A stretch of DNA of 34,369 bases from Burkholderiales bacterium. GTDB lineage: Bacteria; Pseudomonadota; Gammaproteobacteria; Burkholderiales; Burkholderiaceae_C. The stretch covers positions 1-34,369 of the forward strand of contig JANYEE010000087.1 in NCBI GenBank assembly GCA_025363275.1. Reading direction: 5' to 3'. The notes beneath the pieces are model-generated. The model did not search any database, had not been told where the DNA came from, and was given only the letters and a program-made list of their open reading frames with translations. Positions 18,977 to 27,337 of the stretch are shown in pieces (within the stretch, counting starts at the first letter, position 1; each line of letters opens with the position of its first letter). The position numbers and the translations under genes were made by a program.

Positions 18977-19819
18977 TCAATTCTTGCCGCGCAACTCTTG
19001 CATGCGTTCGTTGAAATAACTCTGCACGGTGTAGCGCTCAGACAGCACCACTTCACGCCGAGGATGTAGAAACAACGGCAGCGAAATGCGCGATTTCTGG
19101 GTGCCTTCACCGTTAGGGTTGAGCACGCGGTGCACGGTAGACGGGTAATAGTGGCCTGAAGCCTCCTGCAGCATGTCGCCAATATTGACGATCAACAGTC
19201 CGAAGTCACACGGCACGTCGTGCCAGGCTTCGTCTTTACCCAACACCTGCAGGCCCGGCTCTGTCGCTGCGGGCAGGATGGTTAGCAAATTAATGTCGGT
19301 ATGGGCTGCGGCGCGCACGGCACCTGCTTCCTCATCGCCCACCAGCGGCGGGTAATGCAACACACGCAACAAGGTTTGGTCGCAGCCGTCAATCATCCTG
19401 GGCAGCGGCATGGCGTAGCGGGCTTTGACTTCGTCAGGCGAGTTGTCCTCCACCCAGCCCAGCAGCGTCGCCGCCAGTGCGCTGCCCTGGCTGTAGTAGC
19501 GTCGCGCAGCGTCCGACACCTCAACCGGGTAGCGGCCGTCGGGGTAGATGTGGAAAAACTCTTTCAGATCGCGTTTGGTGTTGCCCTTGGCGGTCTCAGA
19601 CACCGCTGGCGAGAAATAGCCGTCCAGGCGCACCGGGTCCTGTGGGTACCTGTTCTTGGCTTCGGTCTTGAAAAAAAACAGCCATTCAGCGTAAATACCT
19701 TCGACCAGAGACTGGTTCAGCGGGTGGTTGCGCAGCACGCCAAATCCGGTTTCGTGCAGGCTCTTGCAAAATTCCTGTGGCGCGGTGGGGCTCTGAAAAT
19801 CAACGACTGGCAAATGCAT
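18977..19819 (-). CDS. 2-oxoglutarate/Fe(II)-dependent oxygenase, isopenicillin-N-synthase-like
   Basis: This 280-residue protein has the N-terminal DIOX_N pattern (LPVVDFQS…GFGVLRNHPL) and a complete 2OG-oxygenase core: His173-x-Asp175 (AHTDINLLTIL), distal His230 (STVHRVLNP) and Arg244-x-Ser246 for 2-oxoglutarate. It hydroxylates or desaturates a small molecule not identified by sequence. The start at 19819 is chosen because AAGGA precedes it by 9 bases; this Shine-Dalgarno lies in the last codons of the nucleoside hydrolase, whose stop is only 5 bases upstream. That tight link, plus thymine-7-hydroxylase belonging to the same superfamily branch, suggests nucleobase oxidation, which is inference. 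Confidence 0.88.
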   Translation of the reverse strand: MHLPVVDFQSPTAPQEFCKSLHETGFGVLRNHPLNQSLVEGIYAEWLFFFKTEAKNRYPQDPVRLDGYFSPAVSETAKGNTKRDLKEFFHIYPDGRYPVEVSDAARRYYSQGSALAATLLGWVEDNSPDEVKARYAMPLPRMIDGCDQTLLRVLHYPPLVGDEEAGAVRAAAHTDINLLTILPAATEPGLQVLGKDEAWHDVPCDFGLLIVNIGDMLQEASGHYYPSTVHRVLNPNGEGTQKSRISLPLFLHPRREVVLSERYTVQSYFNERMQELRGKN

Positions 19820-19824
19820 GATTG

Positions 19825-20820
19825 CTATTCCTTCTCGAGCCAAGGGCCCATCAGAGTGGATTCAAAAACGTGAAGGACAGCATCGGACTGCACCTGCATG
19901 CAAACCAAGGTGTCGGGCGTATCGCCCCAGCCTATCTGCGGATAGGTAACTGATTCACGGCGGTTCATCATGGTCTGGCCTTGCGCGATACCCTCGGTCG
20001 CCACGCGTATGCGACCGGATTGCACGCTAAACAACCCGGGGTTGGTCAGGTAAATGAAGGCTAGTACGTCATGGCCGAAGCAGCCATAGATTTTGGCCAC
20101 ATGTGGGTAAATGCCGCTGTAGAAGTCGGCATAAAACTTCACTGCGTGCACCAGGGTGTCGGTGGCTGGGTGGTGGTGCTGGTCGGCAATTTTCTGAATC
20201 AGGGCGACTGACACGATCACCTGGTGGGTCACGTCCAGGCCGACCATAGTGAGCTTCCAGCCAGCGGTAAATACCTTATCCGCGGCGTGCGGGTCGTTCC
20301 AGATATTGGCCTCGGCTACGGGCGACACATTGCCGGGCTCCAGGATGGTGCCACCCATGATGATGACTTCTTGCACCAGACGTGGCAGCTCAGGCTCCAG
20401 CATCAGCGCTGCAGCCAGGTTGCCCAGGGGGCCAACTGCAACTAGCGTGATTTCACCAGGGTGGGCACGCGCCATGTCCACAATGAACTGTGCTGACGAG
20501 CGTGGGTCGATCTGGTTCGTGGTGGCGTGGCGGCTGGGCAGGTTGCCCAGGCCGTCAGCGCCGTGGATAAAATCTGGCGGCGCTTCACCGGGCTTGAACC
20601 ACGGGGTTTTGACGCCCTGGGTGACGGGGATATTGCGGTTGGCAATCGCCGTCAGGTAGAGCGCATTGGTCGCAGCCTGATGCACCGACACATTGCCAAA
20701 GGTAGTGGTAATGCCCACCATCTCAATGCCGGTGTGGGCCAGCGCGTAATACAGCGCCATTGCGTCATCAACACCGGGGTCGGTATCAAAAATGACTTTG
20801 CGGGCAGGGGAGATGCTCAT
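19825..20820 (-). CDS. Nucleoside hydrolase (IUNH family)
   Basis: This 331-residue enzyme has the calcium-binding signature DTDPGVDDAMAL (Asp12, 14, 18, 19), the GPLGNLAAAL block, GLDVTHQV, and a C-terminal His250-Asp251 in GHDVLAF. It splits ribonucleosides into base and ribose. A His at position 250 is typical of active family members. Base preference cannot be read off safely. ATG at 20820 is preferred; an in-frame TTG at 20835 is possible, and neither has a good Shine-Dalgarno, so coupling with the ribokinase 28 bp upstream is likely. The 2OG-oxygenase follows after 5 bases. Confidence 0.93.
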   Translation of the reverse strand: MSISPARKVIFDTDPGVDDAMALYYALAHTGIEMVGITTTFGNVSVHQAATNALYLTAIANRNIPVTQGVKTPWFKPGEAPPDFIHGADGLGNLPSRHATTNQIDPRSSAQFIVDMARAHPGEITLVAVGPLGNLAAALMLEPELPRLVQEVIIMGGTILEPGNVSPVAEANIWNDPHAADKVFTAGWKLTMVGLDVTHQVIVSVALIQKIADQHHHPATDTLVHAVKFYADFYSGIYPHVAKIYGCFGHDVLAFIYLTNPGLFSVQSGRIRVATEGIAQGQTMMNRRESVTYPQIGWGDTPDTLVCMQVQSDAVLHVFESTLMGPWLEKE

Positions 20821-20848
20821 GGTGTTGTTAATCAATTTCTAAAAAAGC

Positions 20849-21790
20849 TCAGGCGCTAGGGCTAAGGCCGCAAAACTGACGCAAGGCTTGAACTACGCCA
20901 TCGCCATGGGGCGCCTGTGCGGCCAAAAAGCGGCTGACTTCGGCCGAGGTGGGTATACTTGATTGTGCCCCCAAGCGGGTGCATGCCAGAGCGCCAGCGG
21001 CACTGGCCTGGCGCAAGGCCAAGGCCATGTCTGCGCCTTGGCTGAGCGCGGCCACCAGGCAACCGCAAAAGGTGTCGCCAGCCGCGGTTGTGTCAACTGG
21101 TGTGATGGGGAATGCAGGCTGCAAAACCCACTGACCTCGCACCCGCGCGCAGCAGCCGTGGTGCCCCAGCGTGACCACCACGATGGGCACGGCAATACGT
21201 TCCAGGCATTCGGCAATGCTGCCTTGGTGATTGGCCACGGTGGTCAATTCACCTTCGTTCACCACCAGAATATCGACCGACTGCAAAAGCGCATCGGGCA
21301 GGGCTTGCGCCGGTGCGGCGTTTAGCACCACGCAGACGCTCTCAGCGCGAGCCGCCTGGGCGTAGGCGGCTACGCTGTCCAGTGGCGTCTCCAACTGCAA
21401 AAGCAAATGAGTAAAGCCCTGCAACGCGGGCAGGTGCTCCGGCCGTAGACCGTGGTTGGCGCCAGGAGCTACGGTGATGGCATTTTCGGCATCGTCAGAC
21501 ACGCAAATGAAAGCAGTGCCAGTAGGCTGATCGCTAACACGCACGGCCTGTAAGACCACTCCTGCCTCGGCCAATGAAGCTTCAATGGGTGTAGCAAACG
21601 CATCATTGCCCAAGCCCGCCAACAGCGTGGTGGCTACTGCGCCCGCACGTGCAGAGGCGACAGCTTGGTTAGCCCCTTTACCGCCAGGAAAGGTTTTAAA
21701 GTCGCGCCCGAGTACGGTCTCGCCGGGCTGGGGAATGTGGTTGGCCCGGACCACAAAGTCCAGGTTCGCTGATCCTGCCACCAGTATCAT
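20849..21790 (-). CDS. rbsK: Ribokinase (PfkB family)
   Basis: This 313-residue sugar kinase has the first PfkB signature FPGGKGANQAVASARAG (34-50) and the second DTTAAGDTFCG with catalytic Asp239. The N-terminal MILVAGSANLDFVV and the GxGxN pattern fit ribokinase more than fructokinase or pseudouridine kinase. It would phosphorylate the ribose freed by the nucleoside hydrolase encoded next. The start at 21790 matches the family start; upstream in-frame codons run on to 21949 but add residues without family likeness and overlap the psuK remnant. It is the first gene of the three-gene minus-strand unit. Confidence 0.9.
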   Translation of the reverse strand: MILVAGSANLDFVVRANHIPQPGETVLGRDFKTFPGGKGANQAVASARAGAVATTLLAGLGNDAFATPIEASLAEAGVVLQAVRVSDQPTGTAFICVSDDAENAITVAPGANHGLRPEHLPALQGFTHLLLQLETPLDSVAAYAQAARAESVCVVLNAAPAQALPDALLQSVDILVVNEGELTTVANHQGSIAECLERIAVPIVVVTLGHHGCCARVRGQWVLQPAFPITPVDTTAAGDTFCGCLVAALSQGADMALALRQASAAGALACTRLGAQSSIPTSAEVSRFLAAQAPHGDGVVQALRQFCGLSPSA

Positions 21791-21869
21791 GTTTTTTCTT
21801 TCTTGGATTTTGAACCCCCATTTTGCCATCCGCATCCTCCGGAACACGGCAGCCCCAACACTTTGCCGT

Positions 21870-22040
21870 ACGGGTTCCGTTGGCGTCGATATTTCGGCGG
21901 TGCACACCCCTGCGGATGCGCTGCTGGCCGGACAAGTAGTTGGCCACACGCCGAGCTAACGCTGGGCCACCCCGGTGCTACCCTGGTGCCACCGTGGTGT
22001 CAATGCCCCGAGCTTGAGTGCAGAGTCAGCGCAAAGGCAT
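21870..22040 (+). pseudogene. psuK: Remnant of a PfkB-type pseudouridine kinase gene (psuK), C-terminal end
   Basis: Only the last part of a kinase can be read. One frame gives VGVDIS…ADALLAGQVVG (about 21875-21940), like the second PfkB signature, with the TGAGD core altered to HTPAD. A shifted frame gives AELTLGHPG, and the first frame again gives VNAPSLSAESA. If two of the three 11-bp units at 21967-21999 are removed, the latter two join as AELTLGHPGVNAPSLSAE, a normal PfkB C-terminus. The N-terminal three-quarters are missing. It lies just upstream of the psuG pseudogene on the same strand, as in psuK-psuG operons. The kinase assignment is fair; the exact substrate is inferred from psuG. 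Confidence 0.55.
21967..21999 (+). repeat. Three tandem 11-bp units
   Basis: CCACCCCGGTG, CTACCCTGGTG and CCACCGTGGTG follow one another without a gap. Taking out 22 bp restores a continuous kinase-like frame across this point, so slipped-strand duplication explains one frameshift of the psuK remnant. The units already differ at several positions, so the event is not recent. Confidence 0.7.
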
Positions 22041-22093
22041 TCGCCAACACGGCATCCTTCGCAGGGCATTAATGGGTCCGCCCACAACCAGCC

Positions 22094-22633
22094 ATGACAG
22101 CCTTCGTTGACACCACTCACCTTGCGATAGCCCCTGAAGTTCAGCAGGCTCCGGCCAACCGGATCCCGGTGGTGGCTTTGGAGTCCGCCATTATTTTCCA
22201 CGGCGTGCCCTACCCAGACAACGTGGCCACTGCGCTGTGCCCGCCACCGTTGCCAGTCTGGACGGCAAGCTGATAGCGGGCTTGTCGCCCGCGCAGTGGT
22301 CAAGCTCAAATCGATACGGGATTTGCGATTGACCCAGGATACCTGGAGTTCCTAGAGACCCATGGTGTGCCCGTCGTGGGCTATCAAACGGACAGCTCTT
22401 CCGTCTTCTTTACTCGGACCAACAGCATGGCGGTCAACTACCGGATCGATATTCGCGTTGAAATGGCGCGGGTCTTGCATACCGAGTGGGCTTTGGGTCT
22501 GCAAGGGGGGGTGGTCATTGCCAACCCTGTCCTTGAGCAGTATGCGATGCCAGAAGCTTTGATCGATCATGCGATCAACCAAGCGCTGGCCGCAGCTGTG
22601 GCATGGGAGCTGGTGGCGCTCTCCGGGCGGTGA
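22094..22633 (+). pseudogene. psuG: Pseudouridine-5'-phosphate glycosidase pseudogene (psuG)
   Basis: Three blocks of PsuG are recognisable in order. The N-terminus starts at ATG 22094 and reads [26 protein letters not shown]. From 22240 a -1 frame reads [19 protein letters not shown], with about 12 residues lost between them. From about 22325, back in the first frame, comes YLEFLETHGVPVVGYQTD and GLQGGVVIANPVLEQYAMPE, ending at TGA 22631. About 100 central residues, including the catalytic lysine and GGIGGVHRGA regions, and the C-terminal Asn region are deleted. PsuG splits pseudouridine 5'-phosphate into uracil and ribose 5-phosphate; this copy cannot. It lies between ribokinase and the nucleoside transporter. 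Confidence 0.82.
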
Positions 22634-22736
22634 ACCTTTGTTATGCTTTGCCCATTCGAAAATCAAGGCAAAACCAACCGGAAGTACTGCTAGTGCCTGG
22701 AGTTTTGTATGGAACAACTGACCAATGAGAGATGCT

Positions 22737-23717
22737 ATGAACTTGACTAAAAAAGCCCATTGGGCTCTAGTGGTAGCTGCGGTAGCAGCCAGCCTGAATG
22801 CAGTTGCTGACCCCGCCGTGGTATTCGACATGGGTGGAAAGTTTGACAAATCTTTCAACGAAGCGGCGTTTCGCGGCATGGAGCAATGGAAGAAGGAAAC
22901 CGGCAAGAACTACCTGTCGTTTGAAATTGCCAACGAATCCCAACGCGAGCAGGCCCTGCGCCGCATGGCCGAAAAGGGTGCTAGCCCCATCATCGGCATC
23001 GGCTTTGGTCAAGCTTCCAGCATCGAGAAAATTGCCAAAGAATTCCCCAAACTGAAGTTCGCCATTATCGATATGGTGGTCAACCAGCCCAATGTGCAGT
23101 CCGTCGTATTTAAAGAACAAGAAGGCAGCTTCTTGGTCGGCGTGATGGCCGCGATTGCCAGCAAAACTGGCAAGGTGGGTTTTATTGGTGGCATGGATAT
23201 TCCATTGATCCGCAAGTTTCAATGTGGCTTCGAGCAGGGCGCTAAATACGCCAACCCCAAGGCAGATATTTTCAGCAATATGACCGGTACTACCGGTGCT
23301 GCCTGGAACGATCCTGCGCGGGGCGGCGAGCTAGCCAAGGCGCAATTTACCAAGGGTGCAGACGTGGTGTTCGCCGCTGCTGGCGGAACCGGTATGGGTG
23401 TGTACCAAGCCGCCAAGGACGGCGGCAAGCTGGCCATTGGTGTGGACAGCAACCAGAACTATGTACAGCCCGGCACCATGCTGACCAGCATGGTCAAGCG
23501 CGTAGATCTGGCGGTTTATAACGTTGCGAAGAATCACACTGCGGGTGTGTCAGTGCTGGGATTGAAGGAGGGTGGCGTGGACTATGCAACTGATGAATTT
23601 AACGCCAAGATGATCACGCCTGACATGAAAAAGCGCGTGGAAGCCGCCAAGGCCGATATCGTTAGCGGCAAGGTCAAAGTGGCCGACTACATGGCCGACA
23701 ACGCTTGCAAATTCTGA
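22737..23717 (+). CDS. BMP family ABC transporter, nucleoside-type substrate-binding protein
   Basis: This 326-residue periplasmic binding protein has an N-terminal signal peptide (residues 1-26, ending NAVA before D) without a lipobox cysteine, unlike many lipoprotein BMPs. The mature part has BMP/Med/PnrA features: FDMGGKFDKSFNEAAFRG, GFGQASSIEKIAKEFPKLKFAIID, GFIGGMDIPLIRKFQCGFEQGA and AAGGTGMGVYQAAK with GVDSNQ. Characterised relatives bind purine or pyrimidine nucleosides. The start at 22737 uses the GAGAG just upstream; an ATG at 22725 is in frame but less likely. It is the first gene of a four-gene transporter unit. Confidence 0.92.
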   Translation: MNLTKKAHWALVVAAVAASLNAVADPAVVFDMGGKFDKSFNEAAFRGMEQWKKETGKNYLSFEIANESQREQALRRMAEKGASPIIGIGFGQASSIEKIAKEFPKLKFAIIDMVVNQPNVQSVVFKEQEGSFLVGVMAAIASKTGKVGFIGGMDIPLIRKFQCGFEQGAKYANPKADIFSNMTGTTGAAWNDPARGGELAKAQFTKGADVVFAAAGGTGMGVYQAAKDGGKLAIGVDSNQNYVQPGTMLTSMVKRVDLAVYNVAKNHTAGVSVLGLKEGGVDYATDEFNAKMITPDMKKRVEAAKADIVSGKVKVADYMADNACKF

Positions 23718-25252
23718 TGTCGGTCGCACCATCCGCCATGGCTGTGCGCATGGTGGGCATCCACAAGCGTTTTGGTGCGGTGGCTGCAAACGTTGACGTT
23801 AATCTGAGTATTGCAGCGGGCACGGTGCATGGCATCGTGGGCGAAAATGGTGCGGGCAAGAGCACATTGATGTCCGTGTTGTACGGCTTCTACCAGGCGG
23901 ATAGTGGCTCCATTGAAGTGGCGGGACTTCCAGCCCAAATCCGTAATTCAGACGACGCTATTGGCTTGGGTATTGGCATGGTCCACCAGCACTTCATGCT
24001 GGTGGATACCTTGACTGCGCTGGAAAACGTCATGTTAGGCGCAGAGCCGCATTGGCTGCTCAGACGTGCCGATGCCCTGGTGCGCAAACAACTGGAAATC
24101 CTGATGCGGGATACCGGATTGCATGTAAACCTGGATGCGCTGGTCAGCGATTTGCCTGTGGGTGACCAGCAACGTCTGGAAATTCTGAAGGCGTTGTACC
24201 GCGGCGCCAAGGTGTTGATTCTGGACGAGCCCACTGCGGTGTTGACGCCCCAGGAAACGACCCATTTGTTTAAGGTACTTGCACACCTGCGCTCGCAGGG
24301 CACTACCATATTGCTGATCACCCATAAGCTAAAAGAAGTGATGGGCTTGTGTGATGGTGTGACGGTGATGCGCGCTGGACGCGTGGTGCAAGAGATGCCG
24401 ATTTCGCAAGCGTCGATTGAAGGCTTGGCGGAAGCCATGGTGGGGCGCAAGGTGCAAATGGGCCGCGTGCAGGAGGTCGAAAAACCTGCGGGTGAGGTGC
24501 TGTTGTCACTGCGCAAAGTGCAAGTGCGCGATGCGCAAAATGTGGTACGACTGGCGGATATTGACCTGGATCTGCGAGCCGGCGAAATCGTCGGTGTGGC
24601 GGGCGTTTCGGGCAACGGCCAGAGCGAGCTGCTGGATGTGCTAGCAGGTCTATTGGCGCCCGCTGAGGGAGAGATGCAGTTGGGCGGCCAGATTTTTGGT
24701 CAGGCGGCATGGCTCGACCCGCGCACGGCCCGCTCGCTGGGCCTGGCCCATGTGCCCGAAGACCGGCACGCACGCGCGATGGTGATGGAATTTTCGGCGC
24801 GAGAGTCTGCGGTGTTGGGCTATGACGGTTTGCCTGCCTATACCCGGCGCGGTTGGATGAATCACGCCAGCATGCGCAGCGCCACCGCGCAGATGATGGA
24901 GCGCTTTGATGTGCGCCCGCGCGACCCGGAGCTAGGCAGCAGCAAGTTTTCTGGTGGGAACCAGCAGAAGTTAGTGCTGGCGCGCGAGTTGGGTCAAGCG
25001 CCCAGGGTGCTGTTAGTGGGCCAGCCCACGCGCGGTGTGGATATTGGAGCCATCGAGTTTATTTATTCGCAACTGCGCGCCATGCGCGATGCAGGCTGCG
25101 CTGTTTTGGTCGTGTCCAGTGAGCTGGACGAAATCTTGGCGCTGTCCAATAGGGTAATCGTGATGAATCAGGGACGGCTGACTGGCGAATTGTCGATTGA
25201 GGAATGCACCGAGGCGAATTTGGGCTTACTGATGACCGGAGGTGCCCATTGA
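23717..25252 (+). CDS. Nucleoside ABC transporter ATP-binding protein (two ABC domains)
   Basis: This 511-residue tandem ATPase has Walker A GENGAGKST (42-50) and Walker B LILDEPTAVLT in the first domain, with an unusual signature LPVGDQQRLEIL. The second domain has the degenerate Walker A GVSGNGQSE, a canonical SGGNQQK signature and a divergent Walker B (LLVGQPTRGVD). This one-good, one-degenerate layout is normal for RbsA/NupA/YufO-type importers. The ATG overlaps the BMP stop by one base (TGATG), and there is no strong ribosome-binding site, so coupling is likely. Confidence 0.94.
   Translation: MSVAPSAMAVRMVGIHKRFGAVAANVDVNLSIAAGTVHGIVGENGAGKSTLMSVLYGFYQADSGSIEVAGLPAQIRNSDDAIGLGIGMVHQHFMLVDTLTALENVMLGAEPHWLLRRADALVRKQLEILMRDTGLHVNLDALVSDLPVGDQQRLEILKALYRGAKVLILDEPTAVLTPQETTHLFKVLAHLRSQGTTILLITHKLKEVMGLCDGVTVMRAGRVVQEMPISQASIEGLAEAMVGRKVQMGRVQEVEKPAGEVLLSLRKVQVRDAQNVVRLADIDLDLRAGEIVGVAGVSGNGQSELLDVLAGLLAPAEGEMQLGGQIFGQAAWLDPRTARSLGLAHVPEDRHARAMVMEFSARESAVLGYDGLPAYTRRGWMNHASMRSATAQMMERFDVRPRDPELGSSKFSGGNQQKLVLARELGQAPRVLLVGQPTRGVDIGAIEFIYSQLRAMRDAGCAVLVVSSELDEILALSNRVIVMNQGRLTGELSIEECTEANLGLLMTGGAH
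25238..25243 (+). promoter_or_regulatory. Shine-Dalgarno GGAGGT fixing a TTG start
   Basis: A full GGAGGT lies 5 bases before the TTG at 25249. The TTG overlaps the TGA of the ATPase gene (TTGA), and no ATG is near, so this site decides the permease start. Confidence 0.7.
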
Positions 25253-26376
25253 GCGCGCCACAAGCTTTGCCCCGTTGGGCTGATTTGGTGTTGCTGCCGG
25301 TGGTTTGCCTGGCCGTGGCACTGGCCGTGGCTGCCGGCGTGGTGGCGCTGGTGGGGCAGAGCCCGACGGAAGTCATCACCGTGTTGATCAAGGGTGCCTT
25401 TGGCACGGCGCGCGGTATCAGCTACACCTTGTATTACGCCACCACGTTCATCTTTACCGGCCTGGCTGTGGCTGTGGCTTTTCATGGTGGACTGTTCAAT
25501 ATCGGCGGTGAAGGCCAGTCGGTGATGGGCGGCCTGGGCACTGGCCTGGTGGCTATGTGGCTAAGTGCTAGTTTGCCCGCCTGGGCCATGCTGCCGCTGA
25601 TGCTGGTGGCAGGCGCACTGTTTGGCATGGCATGGGCGGCAGTGCCGGGCTACCTGCAGGCCTACCGCGGCAGCCACGTGGTGATTACGACCATCATGTT
25701 TAACTTCATTGCCAGCACTGTGCTGGTGTATTTGCTGGTGAATCACCTGCGTCCGGCAGGCTCCATGTCGGTCGAATCTGCACCATTTGCTGAATCGGCA
25801 AAACTGCCCAGCATGCAGGATGCTTTGGCATGGATTGGCGTGGATTGGCCTGCATCGCCCCTGAATTTGAGTGTGTTGCTGGCGCTTATCGCTGCAGTGG
25901 GCGTGTATTTGTTTTTGTGGCGCACCCGGCGCGGCTACCATGTGCGCGCCGTTGGCTCCAGCCCCAGCGCCGCGGAATACGCAGGTATTAACTCCCGCCA
26001 CCAGATCCTGGTAGCCATGGGTCTTTCGGGCGCATTGGCCGGCCTGGTGGGAATGAATGAGATTGCGGGCGTCAATGGCAAGCTGCTGCTGGAGTTTGTA
26101 AGCGGTGCAGGCTTCACCGGCATAGCGGTGGCACTGATGGGGCGTAACCACCCGGTGGGCATTGTGTTCGCCAGTCTCTTGTTTGGCGCCTTGTTCCAGG
26201 GCGGGGCTGAAGTGGCATTCGATGTGCCGGGCTTTAGCCGCGACATGGTGGTGATGCTGCAGGGTTTTATCGTGTTGTTCTCCGGTGCGATGGTCTATGT
26301 GATTGCGCCCAGATTGGCGTGGGTACTGAGCAAGTTACCTATACGGAAAGCCCCAGCGGGTGCCGCCCATGGATGA
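25249..26376 (+). CDS. Nucleoside ABC transporter permease, first subunit
   Basis: This 375-residue integral membrane protein of the BPD_transp_2 class has about ten hydrophobic segments. Family features are FIFTGLAVAVAFHGGLFNIGGEGQ (about 75-98), a long loop, and RAVGSSPSAAEYAGI…GLSGALAGLVGMNEIAG in the cytoplasmic-loop region, as in YufP/NupB. It starts with TTG at 25249, overlapping the ATPase stop, with a strong Shine-Dalgarno. It forms the import channel with the next permease. Confidence 0.92.
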   Translation: MSAPQALPRWADLVLLPVVCLAVALAVAAGVVALVGQSPTEVITVLIKGAFGTARGISYTLYYATTFIFTGLAVAVAFHGGLFNIGGEGQSVMGGLGTGLVAMWLSASLPAWAMLPLMLVAGALFGMAWAAVPGYLQAYRGSHVVITTIMFNFIASTVLVYLLVNHLRPAGSMSVESAPFAESAKLPSMQDALAWIGVDWPASPLNLSVLLALIAAVGVYLFLWRTRRGYHVRAVGSSPSAAEYAGINSRHQILVAMGLSGALAGLVGMNEIAGVNGKLLLEFVSGAGFTGIAVALMGRNHPVGIVFASLLFGALFQGGAEVAFDVPGFSRDMVVMLQGFIVLFSGAMVYVIAPRLAWVLSKLPIRKAPAGAAHG

Positions 26377-27337
26377 AGCCCTGTTTGGCGCCTTGCTCGC
26401 CTCCACGCTGCGGGTATCAACGCCTCTTATTTTGTGTGCGATGGCGGGCCTGCTGTCGGAGCGCTCTGGCGTGGTGGACATTGGTCTGGAAGGCAAGATG
26501 TTGGCGGCTGCCTTTGCCGCTGCCGCGACGGGGGCGACCTACAATTCCACAAGTCTGGCTCTTTTTGCCGGGGTCGCGGTCGCAGTCGTTTTGTCGTGGA
26601 CGCATGGCCTGGCCTGCGTGAGCCACAAGGGTGATCAGGTGGTATCGGGGGTGGCGATCAATATCATCGCCTCGGGGTTAACCGTGGTGCTGGGCATTGC
26701 CTGGTTTGCACAGGGGGGGCAAACGCCGCCGGTGTCGAATGCGGTGCGCATTCAGCCCTTGTGTCCGCAACTGGCAGATGCTTTGCAAAGCATTCCTTGG
26801 GTCGGCTCCATCATCGGGCAAGGTCTGTTCGGTCACAACGCGCTGGTGTATGCGGCGCTGTTGCTAGTGCCAGGTGTGTGGTGGCTGGTGTTTAGAACCC
26901 GCTTCGGCCTGCGGCTGCGCGCCGTGGGTGAGAACCCGCAAATGGTGGATGCTGCCGGTGTCTCCGTGTCAGGTTTGCGCTATGCGGCGCTGACTTTGAA
27001 CGGTGTGCTGTGCGGTTTGGCGGGCGCCTATTTGGTGCTGGCCCAAAGCGCAAGTTTTTCTCCGAATATGACCGCCGGGCGGGGCTTTATGGCTTTGGCG
27101 GCGCTTATTTTTGGCCGTTGGTACCCCTTTACTGCGCTGTGGGCTTGCCTGTTGTTTGGGTTCTTAGATGCTGCGGCCATTCGCCTGCAAGGCGTATCTT
27201 TGCCGGGCATTGGTGAAGTGCCTGTGCAGGCCATTCAGGCGCTGCCTTATGTGCTAACTGTAGTGCTGCTGGCGGGTTTTATCGGCAAAGCGGTTGCACC
27301 ACAAGCGCTCGGCAAGCCGTATAGTAAAGAACGCTGA
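26369..27337 (+). CDS. Nucleoside ABC transporter permease, second subunit
   Basis: This 322-residue integral membrane protein of the YufQ/NupC permease class begins MDEALFGALLASTLRVSTPLILCAMAGLLSERSGVVDIGLEGKML, which is the usual opening of this subunit. It has a further seven or so hydrophobic segments, LRLRAVGENPQMVDAAGV and AQSASFSPNMTAGRGFMALAALIFG. The ATG at 26369 lies 8 bases inside the end of the first permease gene. It ends the transporter unit; 62 bp of plain sequence without a terminator separate it from the next gene, so read-through is possible. Confidence 0.92.
   Translation: MDEALFGALLASTLRVSTPLILCAMAGLLSERSGVVDIGLEGKMLAAAFAAAATGATYNSTSLALFAGVAVAVVLSWTHGLACVSHKGDQVVSGVAINIIASGLTVVLGIAWFAQGGQTPPVSNAVRIQPLCPQLADALQSIPWVGSIIGQGLFGHNALVYAALLLVPGVWWLVFRTRFGLRLRAVGENPQMVDAAGVSVSGLRYAALTLNGVLCGLAGAYLVLAQSASFSPNMTAGRGFMALAALIFGRWYPFTALWACLLFGFLDAAAIRLQGVSLPGIGEVPVQAIQALPYVLTVVLLAGFIGKAVAPQALGKPYSKER

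Follow-up and report, generated by a model that had tools for sequence, protein, structure and literature searches.

FJS and PHYHD1, which belong to a 2-oxoglutarate (2OG) oxygenase family defined by PF05721, are reported to demethylate free 2'-O-methyl nucleosides, and the same source describes the bacterial breakdown of these compounds as largely unexplored (PMC12709175). Other described systems that bear on the locus studied here are thymine-7-hydroxylase (T7H) of Neurospora (5c3p), which acts on free thymine; the AdaV-type 2OG halogenase (7fh5), a biosynthetic enzyme; the pseudouridine genes psuG and psuK of the E. coli type; and a solved protein of Shewanella oneidensis, SO_2589 (3on7), whose entry titles assign no function. 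The locus lies in a 34,369-nucleotide stretch of DNA from a Burkholderiales bacterium (contig JANYEE010000087.1, assembly GCA_025363275.1), hereafter the window. There, a closely packed minus-strand unit of genes for a probable ribokinase (RK), a nucleoside hydrolase (NH) and an Fe(II)/2OG-type oxygenase (OXY) faces a complete plus-strand ABC importer of the BMP type.

This is a real, conserved and undescribed nucleoside-catabolism unit with an oxygenase: a search of the open-access literature, with subscription papers outside its range, found no paper describing an RK-NH-OXY operon or a function for SO_2589. In a tentative reading that falls just short of probable, a modified pyrimidine nucleoside, most likely methylated, is imported and then oxidised by OXY to the plain ribonucleoside that NH splits. 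By joining importer, hydrolase, kinase and oxygenase, the operon narrows the candidate substrates of a widespread enzyme, one with a solved relative, to a few that can be tested.

Conservation of the oxygenase-containing unit

OXY (18977..19819, minus strand; 280 aa) stands last in the unit. NH (19825..20820, minus strand; 331 aa from an ATG at 20820, with a TTG upstream at 20835) ends in a stop codon at 19827-19825, leaving a gap of 5 bases before the OXY ATG at 19819-19817, and the likely ribosome-binding site of OXY, AAGGA at 19829..19833 (minus strand), lies within NH and precedes that ATG by 9 bases; the preliminary description had noted this 5-base gap and a Shine-Dalgarno element within NH. 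NH matches PF01156 at 7.3e-86 (288.9 bits versus a cut-off of 34.2), is the only such match in the window's genome and has Nucleoside N-ribohydrolase 1 (4kpn, 1.1e-60) as its nearest solved chain; it scores below the cut-offs of all NCBIfam hydrolase equivalogs, the best being RihC (195.3 versus 382). RK (20849..21790, minus strand; 313 aa) is a PfkB kinase whose most likely start codon is the ATG near 21790 (MILVAGS) rather than the GTG of a longer open reading frame, and the TIGR02152 ribokinase family is the best of 21 for it, yet at 264.3 bits stays below the cut-off of 299.65. Pfam agrees with the families first assigned from the sequence, namely a ribokinase-type kinase, a nucleoside hydrolase, a 2OG oxygenase and a BMP-type ABC importer.

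To assess conservation, we searched 8 kb on each side of OXY, where the contig permits, in the genomes of a census, and we also inspected the 80 best loci, here called named loci, which overlap with the census genomes so that the two counts are not additive. NH directly precedes OXY in 72 of the 80 named loci, with RK found in 65, BMP in 47 and a cytidine deaminase in 12, and the order RK-NH-OXY is kept in all 14 of L003-L016. Among the eight loci without an adjacent NH, one begins at OXY (L100) and another, from Kaistia (L108), has the importer and NH 1.4-7 kb downstream. In the window's own family, 123 of 299 genomes had a match to OXY at E 0.001, and 47 of these are clear orthologues (E <=1.6e-84, the next being 2.2e-29). 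In sixteen of the 47, RK and NH share the strand of OXY, and 8-206 nt separate NH from OXY; eight of the sixteen also have BMP within 8 kb, and the OXY proteins of all sixteen share at least 71% identity with that of the window. The other 31 (60-64% identity) have none of the sought genes within 8 kb. The unit is kept well beyond chance. Loss of the NH-OXY pairing in relatives was the check that the preliminary description had named against its own reading; run here, that check found the pairing conserved.

The linkage extends to other orders and classes, in more than one form. Across a phylum sample, 31 of 398 genomes, the window's included, had OXY at 1e-40; of the other 30, seven place NupC and uridine kinase (udk) beside OXY, one (L157) has the run RK-NH-OXY-BMP-cytidine deaminase and 22 have none of these. 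No hydrolase was found within 8 kb of OXY in the seven NupC-udk-OXY genomes, the distance over which one was sought. NupC of L121 passes the TIGR00804 cut-off and Udk of L146 that of TIGR00235, the remainder being recognised by tblastn at 55-75% identity. In the class of L157, taken as Alphaproteobacteria, 16 of 289 genomes, L157 among them, had an OXY match, and four show RK-NH-OXY-BMP in one run (L157, L181, L183 and L184). NH-OXY-BMP occurs in L185, a NupC relative lies beside OXY in L188, and in L190 BMP is present and the contig ends at OXY; nine of the 15 alphaproteobacterial OXY genomes besides L157 have no sought gene, one of which (L191) holds a doubtful orthologue. In total, 30 of the 92 OXY genomes of the census are linked to nucleoside genes.

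We also built a quick, midpoint-rooted tree of 110 oxygenases, in which several branches are long. It comprised those of the 92 census genomes, 15 others and three divergent members of a comparison set of 20 more distant oxygenases that was intended as a negative control, the other 17 members being left out. The window OXY falls in a 23-row set that is linked throughout to NH or BMP (support 97). Linked and unlinked OXY are interleaved, with the Formosimonas OXY placed among unlinked rows, and the nucleoside label needs at least four changes on this tree, which implies that nucleoside linkage was gained or retained on more than one occasion.

Features of the oxygenase

OXY matches PF14226 (DIOX_N) and PF03171 (2OG-FeII_Oxy) over their cut-offs (65.4 versus 23 and 40.3 versus 27.3 bits) and only these, without the PF05721 (PhyH) domain, and an NCBIfam scan gave no family for it. 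Among solved proteins, phmmer found 3on7 as a full-length relative (2.8e-106), followed by 3oox (6.5e-31), T7H (2e-11), AdaV (7.5e-9) and 1bk0 (2.5e-4), the last value placing OXY at a distance from isopenicillin N synthase proper. A Foldseek search with the OXY structure model (predicted local distance difference test score, 87.6) likewise ranked 3on7 first and 3oox next, and then returned a mixed list, with T7H at rank 13 (E 5.2e-19), that indicated no substrate.

By alignment, the metal-binding and 2OG residues of OXY are intact. H173, D175 and H230 align with the iron ligands H214, D216 and H271 of T7H and are invariant in 24 relatives, as are the 2OG residues R152, L154, Y156, L182, V232, R244 and S246. 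These match all seven 2OG contacts given for T7H (Arg190, Leu192, Tyr194, Leu223, Val273, Arg286 and Ser288), an account in which Tyr217 covers the thymine and Phe292 stacks (PMC4787775). F250 of OXY corresponds to the stacking Phe292, but Tyr217 is replaced by Ile176, invariant in the 24 aligned relatives, and Asn294 by His252, which is nearly so.

Proposed function and alternatives

In the pathway that we favour, the BMP-type transporter would import nucleosides, and OXY would act before NH, hydroxylating a methyl carbon that would then depart as formaldehyde to leave a plain ribonucleoside. NH would cleave this to base and ribose, and RK would convert the ribose to ribose-5-phosphate, as expected of their families; in lineages without NH, the udk-nupC-OXY clusters suggest that the product of OXY would pass to uridine kinase instead. 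OXY probably acts on the nucleoside rather than on a base released by NH, because in the NupC-udk setting NH is absent from the 8 kb around OXY, so that no free base would be needed there. Uridine kinase would accept a ribonucleoside product, which fits a nucleoside substrate for OXY, and nucleoside import is the one constant across the linked settings. The cytidine deaminase of L157, which passes its cut-off, and PreA (uracil reduction), which adjoins RK in L181, point to pyrimidines. The narrower version of this pathway, in which the substrates are ribose- or base-methylated nucleosides, is unlikely as it stands, though not remote.

A second family of 2OG oxygenases keeps similar company. 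PHYHD1-like genes, matching human PHYHD1 at 3.4e-67, were found in 28 of 289 alphaproteobacterial genomes (for example, L224 9107-9937, minus strand), and in 14 of the 28 they lie no more than 10 kb from a BMP importer, showing that modified-nucleoside demethylases are found in the company of this importer. BMP importers near PHYHD1-like genes also stand with cytidine deaminase and with genes that, judged by eye, resemble purine and thymidine phosphorylase. FJS/PHYHD1 thus offers a likeness, as 2OG enzymes on free modified nucleosides with relatives near BMP importers in alphaproteobacteria, but belongs to another Pfam family than OXY, and L316 and the window's genome each carry both types.

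This coexistence is one of several points that weigh against our reading. The PHYHD1-like gene of L316 lies in OXY's own cluster, and 7 of 20 linked-OXY genomes have a PHYHD1-like match, including that of the window, where it is found elsewhere (C235:26909-27661, 6.5e-67). PHYHD1-like genes may therefore already cover 2'-O-demethylation, and OXY may deal with a different modification, for example a base methyl, or with some other substrate. In addition, the search of 8 kb around OXY found no sought nucleoside gene in 62 of the 92 OXY genomes, and 3on7 and 3oox, its closest relatives of solved structure, carry no assigned function. The comparison set proved to be no clean negative: 3 of its 20 members, all from one genus, belong to RK-NH-BMP clusters, weak BMP relatives lie near another 6, and the remaining 11 have neither. 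Curated cut-offs assign no substrate to RK, NH or the importer, and because they are not reached, the exact substrates of all three are inferred only.

The main rival to a methylated substrate, though a quite unlikely one, is 2'-hydroxylation of pyrimidine 2'-deoxynucleosides: a bacterial OXY of this kind would convert deoxyuridine, deoxycytidine or thymidine to the ribonucleoside for NH or uridine kinase and so allow DNA-derived nucleosides to be used without phosphorolysis. The fungal thymidine pathway provides a comparable 2'-hydroxylation route. AdaV is among the solved relatives of OXY, related in fold and distant in sequence, and presumably has a nucleotide substrate and acts at C2' of a deoxynucleotide. 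In the 20 linked-OXY genomes, the only ones in which it was counted, PYNP_C (deoA-type) was over its cut-off in none, and deoC was over its cut-off in just one. This near absence had prompted us to take 2'-hydroxylation as the leading reading, which was lowered by the controls for deoC. In the window's family, deoC is no rarer in linked genomes (3 of 16) than in OXY-negative ones (39 of 252; Fisher p 0.72), and it is present in 30 of 31 unlinked OXY genomes (3e-20 versus OXY-negative), although these values are a guide only, being uncorrected for kinship among genomes of one clade, which are not independent. Counted by genus, deoC occurs in 14 of the 15 genera with unlinked OXY and in 3 of the 9 with linked OXY. 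Outside the family, it was found in none of 7 NupC-linked and none of 7 linked alphaproteobacterial genomes, in 18 of 22 and 3 of 8 unlinked ones, and in 7 of 44 that are OXY-negative. Unlinked OXY therefore accompanies deoC, contrary to what a deoC-replacing role predicts, and in the 30 and 18 unlinked genomes that have both, the route would be redundant. The co-occurrence of unlinked OXY and deoC within the family is possibly a clade effect.

The preliminary description had proposed that OXY may oxidise the base, such as thymine, that NH sets free, in the manner of T7H, a proposal that we find no more probable than 2'-hydroxylation. The two enzymes have a broad fold in common, T7H is among the structural matches, and the iron ligands, 2OG residues and stacking Phe are all matched. 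Sequence similarity to T7H is weak, however, the Tyr and Asn at positions 217 and 294 of T7H are both substituted, other BMP loci hold an oxygenase closer to T7H, and OXY occurs in NupC-udk clusters without a nearby NH. The missing Tyr and the NupC-udk-OXY clusters led us to lower base oxidation from its place as the leading reading. The coupling of OXY to nucleoside import and hydrolysis therefore stands, upheld by conserved linkage, but action on the released base is disfavoured, and the proposed order of steps, hydrolysis followed by base oxidation, probably does not hold. Finally, OXY might serve some general purpose unrelated to nucleosides and simply be a frequent neighbour of nucleoside genes, as the unlinked majority and its unrelated neighbours (sucA in L109, msrAB in L126 and, in L132 and L135, DnaJ-related and DUF2238 genes) might suggest. 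This is improbable, because the linkage is seen repeatedly, in two or more distinct nucleoside settings and in lineages scattered across the tree, Kaistia and Formosimonas included.

Importer and pseudouridine genes

Opposite the RK-NH-OXY unit, four plus-strand genes in a row make up the BMP-type importer gene set: a BMP/PnrA-type substrate-binding protein (22725..23717, with an ATG at 22725 and another at 22737; PF02608, 1.3e-60), a two-domain ABC ATPase (23705..25252; PF00005 in two stretches) and two permeases of the BPD_transp_2 family (PF02653), at 25204..26376 (4.2e-37) and 26360..27337 (8.1e-34). The curated family closest to the importer is that of a putative B6 transporter, whose NCBIfam cut-offs are not reached (421.7 versus 670 for the ATPase); the genes around the importer suggest that it carries nucleosides.

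Between the two units lies a remnant that the preliminary description had missed, a broken psuG (pseudouridine-5'-phosphate glycosidase; 22118..22603, plus strand), in pieces and in two frames. With the intact psuG of L033 as the tblastn query, residues 6-45, 52-84 and 171-257 were recovered; no psuK remnant was found beside it in the window. In relatives such as L032-L034 and L306, the place of the remnant, with the importer on one side and RK on the other, is taken by an intact psuG and psuK-like genes. In L033, psuG matches Pfam Indigoidine_A at 1.6e-132, and the psuK-like gene, a PfkB gene whose nearest family is pseudouridine kinase, scores 196.7 bits, under the NCBIfam cut-off of 540. 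Relatives thus carry genes resembling E. coli-type psuG/psuK, but the window differs in its broken psuG and missing psuK. Within 10 kb, psuG is present in 18 and psuK-like genes in 19 of the 80 named loci, counts that are lower bounds as many contigs are short.

The OXY operon is thereby tied to both pseudouridine and PHYHD1-like genes. Possibly, in a proposal held a little more loosely than the pathway above, a single importer serves pseudouridine (through psuG/psuK), 2'-O-methyl nucleosides (through PHYHD1-like enzymes) and a third modified or deoxy pyrimidine nucleoside that OXY converts to a ribonucleoside before hydrolysis. OXY would then be the first of its subfamily found to act on nucleosides, with a separate coupling to NupC and uridine kinase in other orders, and the whole an undescribed bacterial island for modified nucleosides.

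In the clustered set, 28 loci (for example, L101 5654-7459, plus strand) also have a nitrite/sulfite reductase gene near OXY; this gene is probably a mere neighbour.

Other oxygenases near BMP importers

Two further groups of oxygenases were observed beside BMP importers. In L192 (7881-8852, minus strand), and also in L193 and L194 of the same genus, a divergent 3oox-like oxygenase (1.4e-74) ends a BMP-ABC-permease-permease-RK-NH cluster and is followed by a TRZ/ATZ hydrolase, forming a second oxygenase subfamily in the same BMP-RK-NH setting. In genus g72, L211 and L208 have BMP-type importers with two 2OG oxygenases, and RutA of L208 is over its cut-off. One oxygenase of L211 (7875-8864, minus strand) matches T7H at 3.8e-47 and is equally close to ethylene-forming enzyme (3e-49); judged by sequence, it is a better candidate than OXY for a bacterial thymine-7-hydroxylase.

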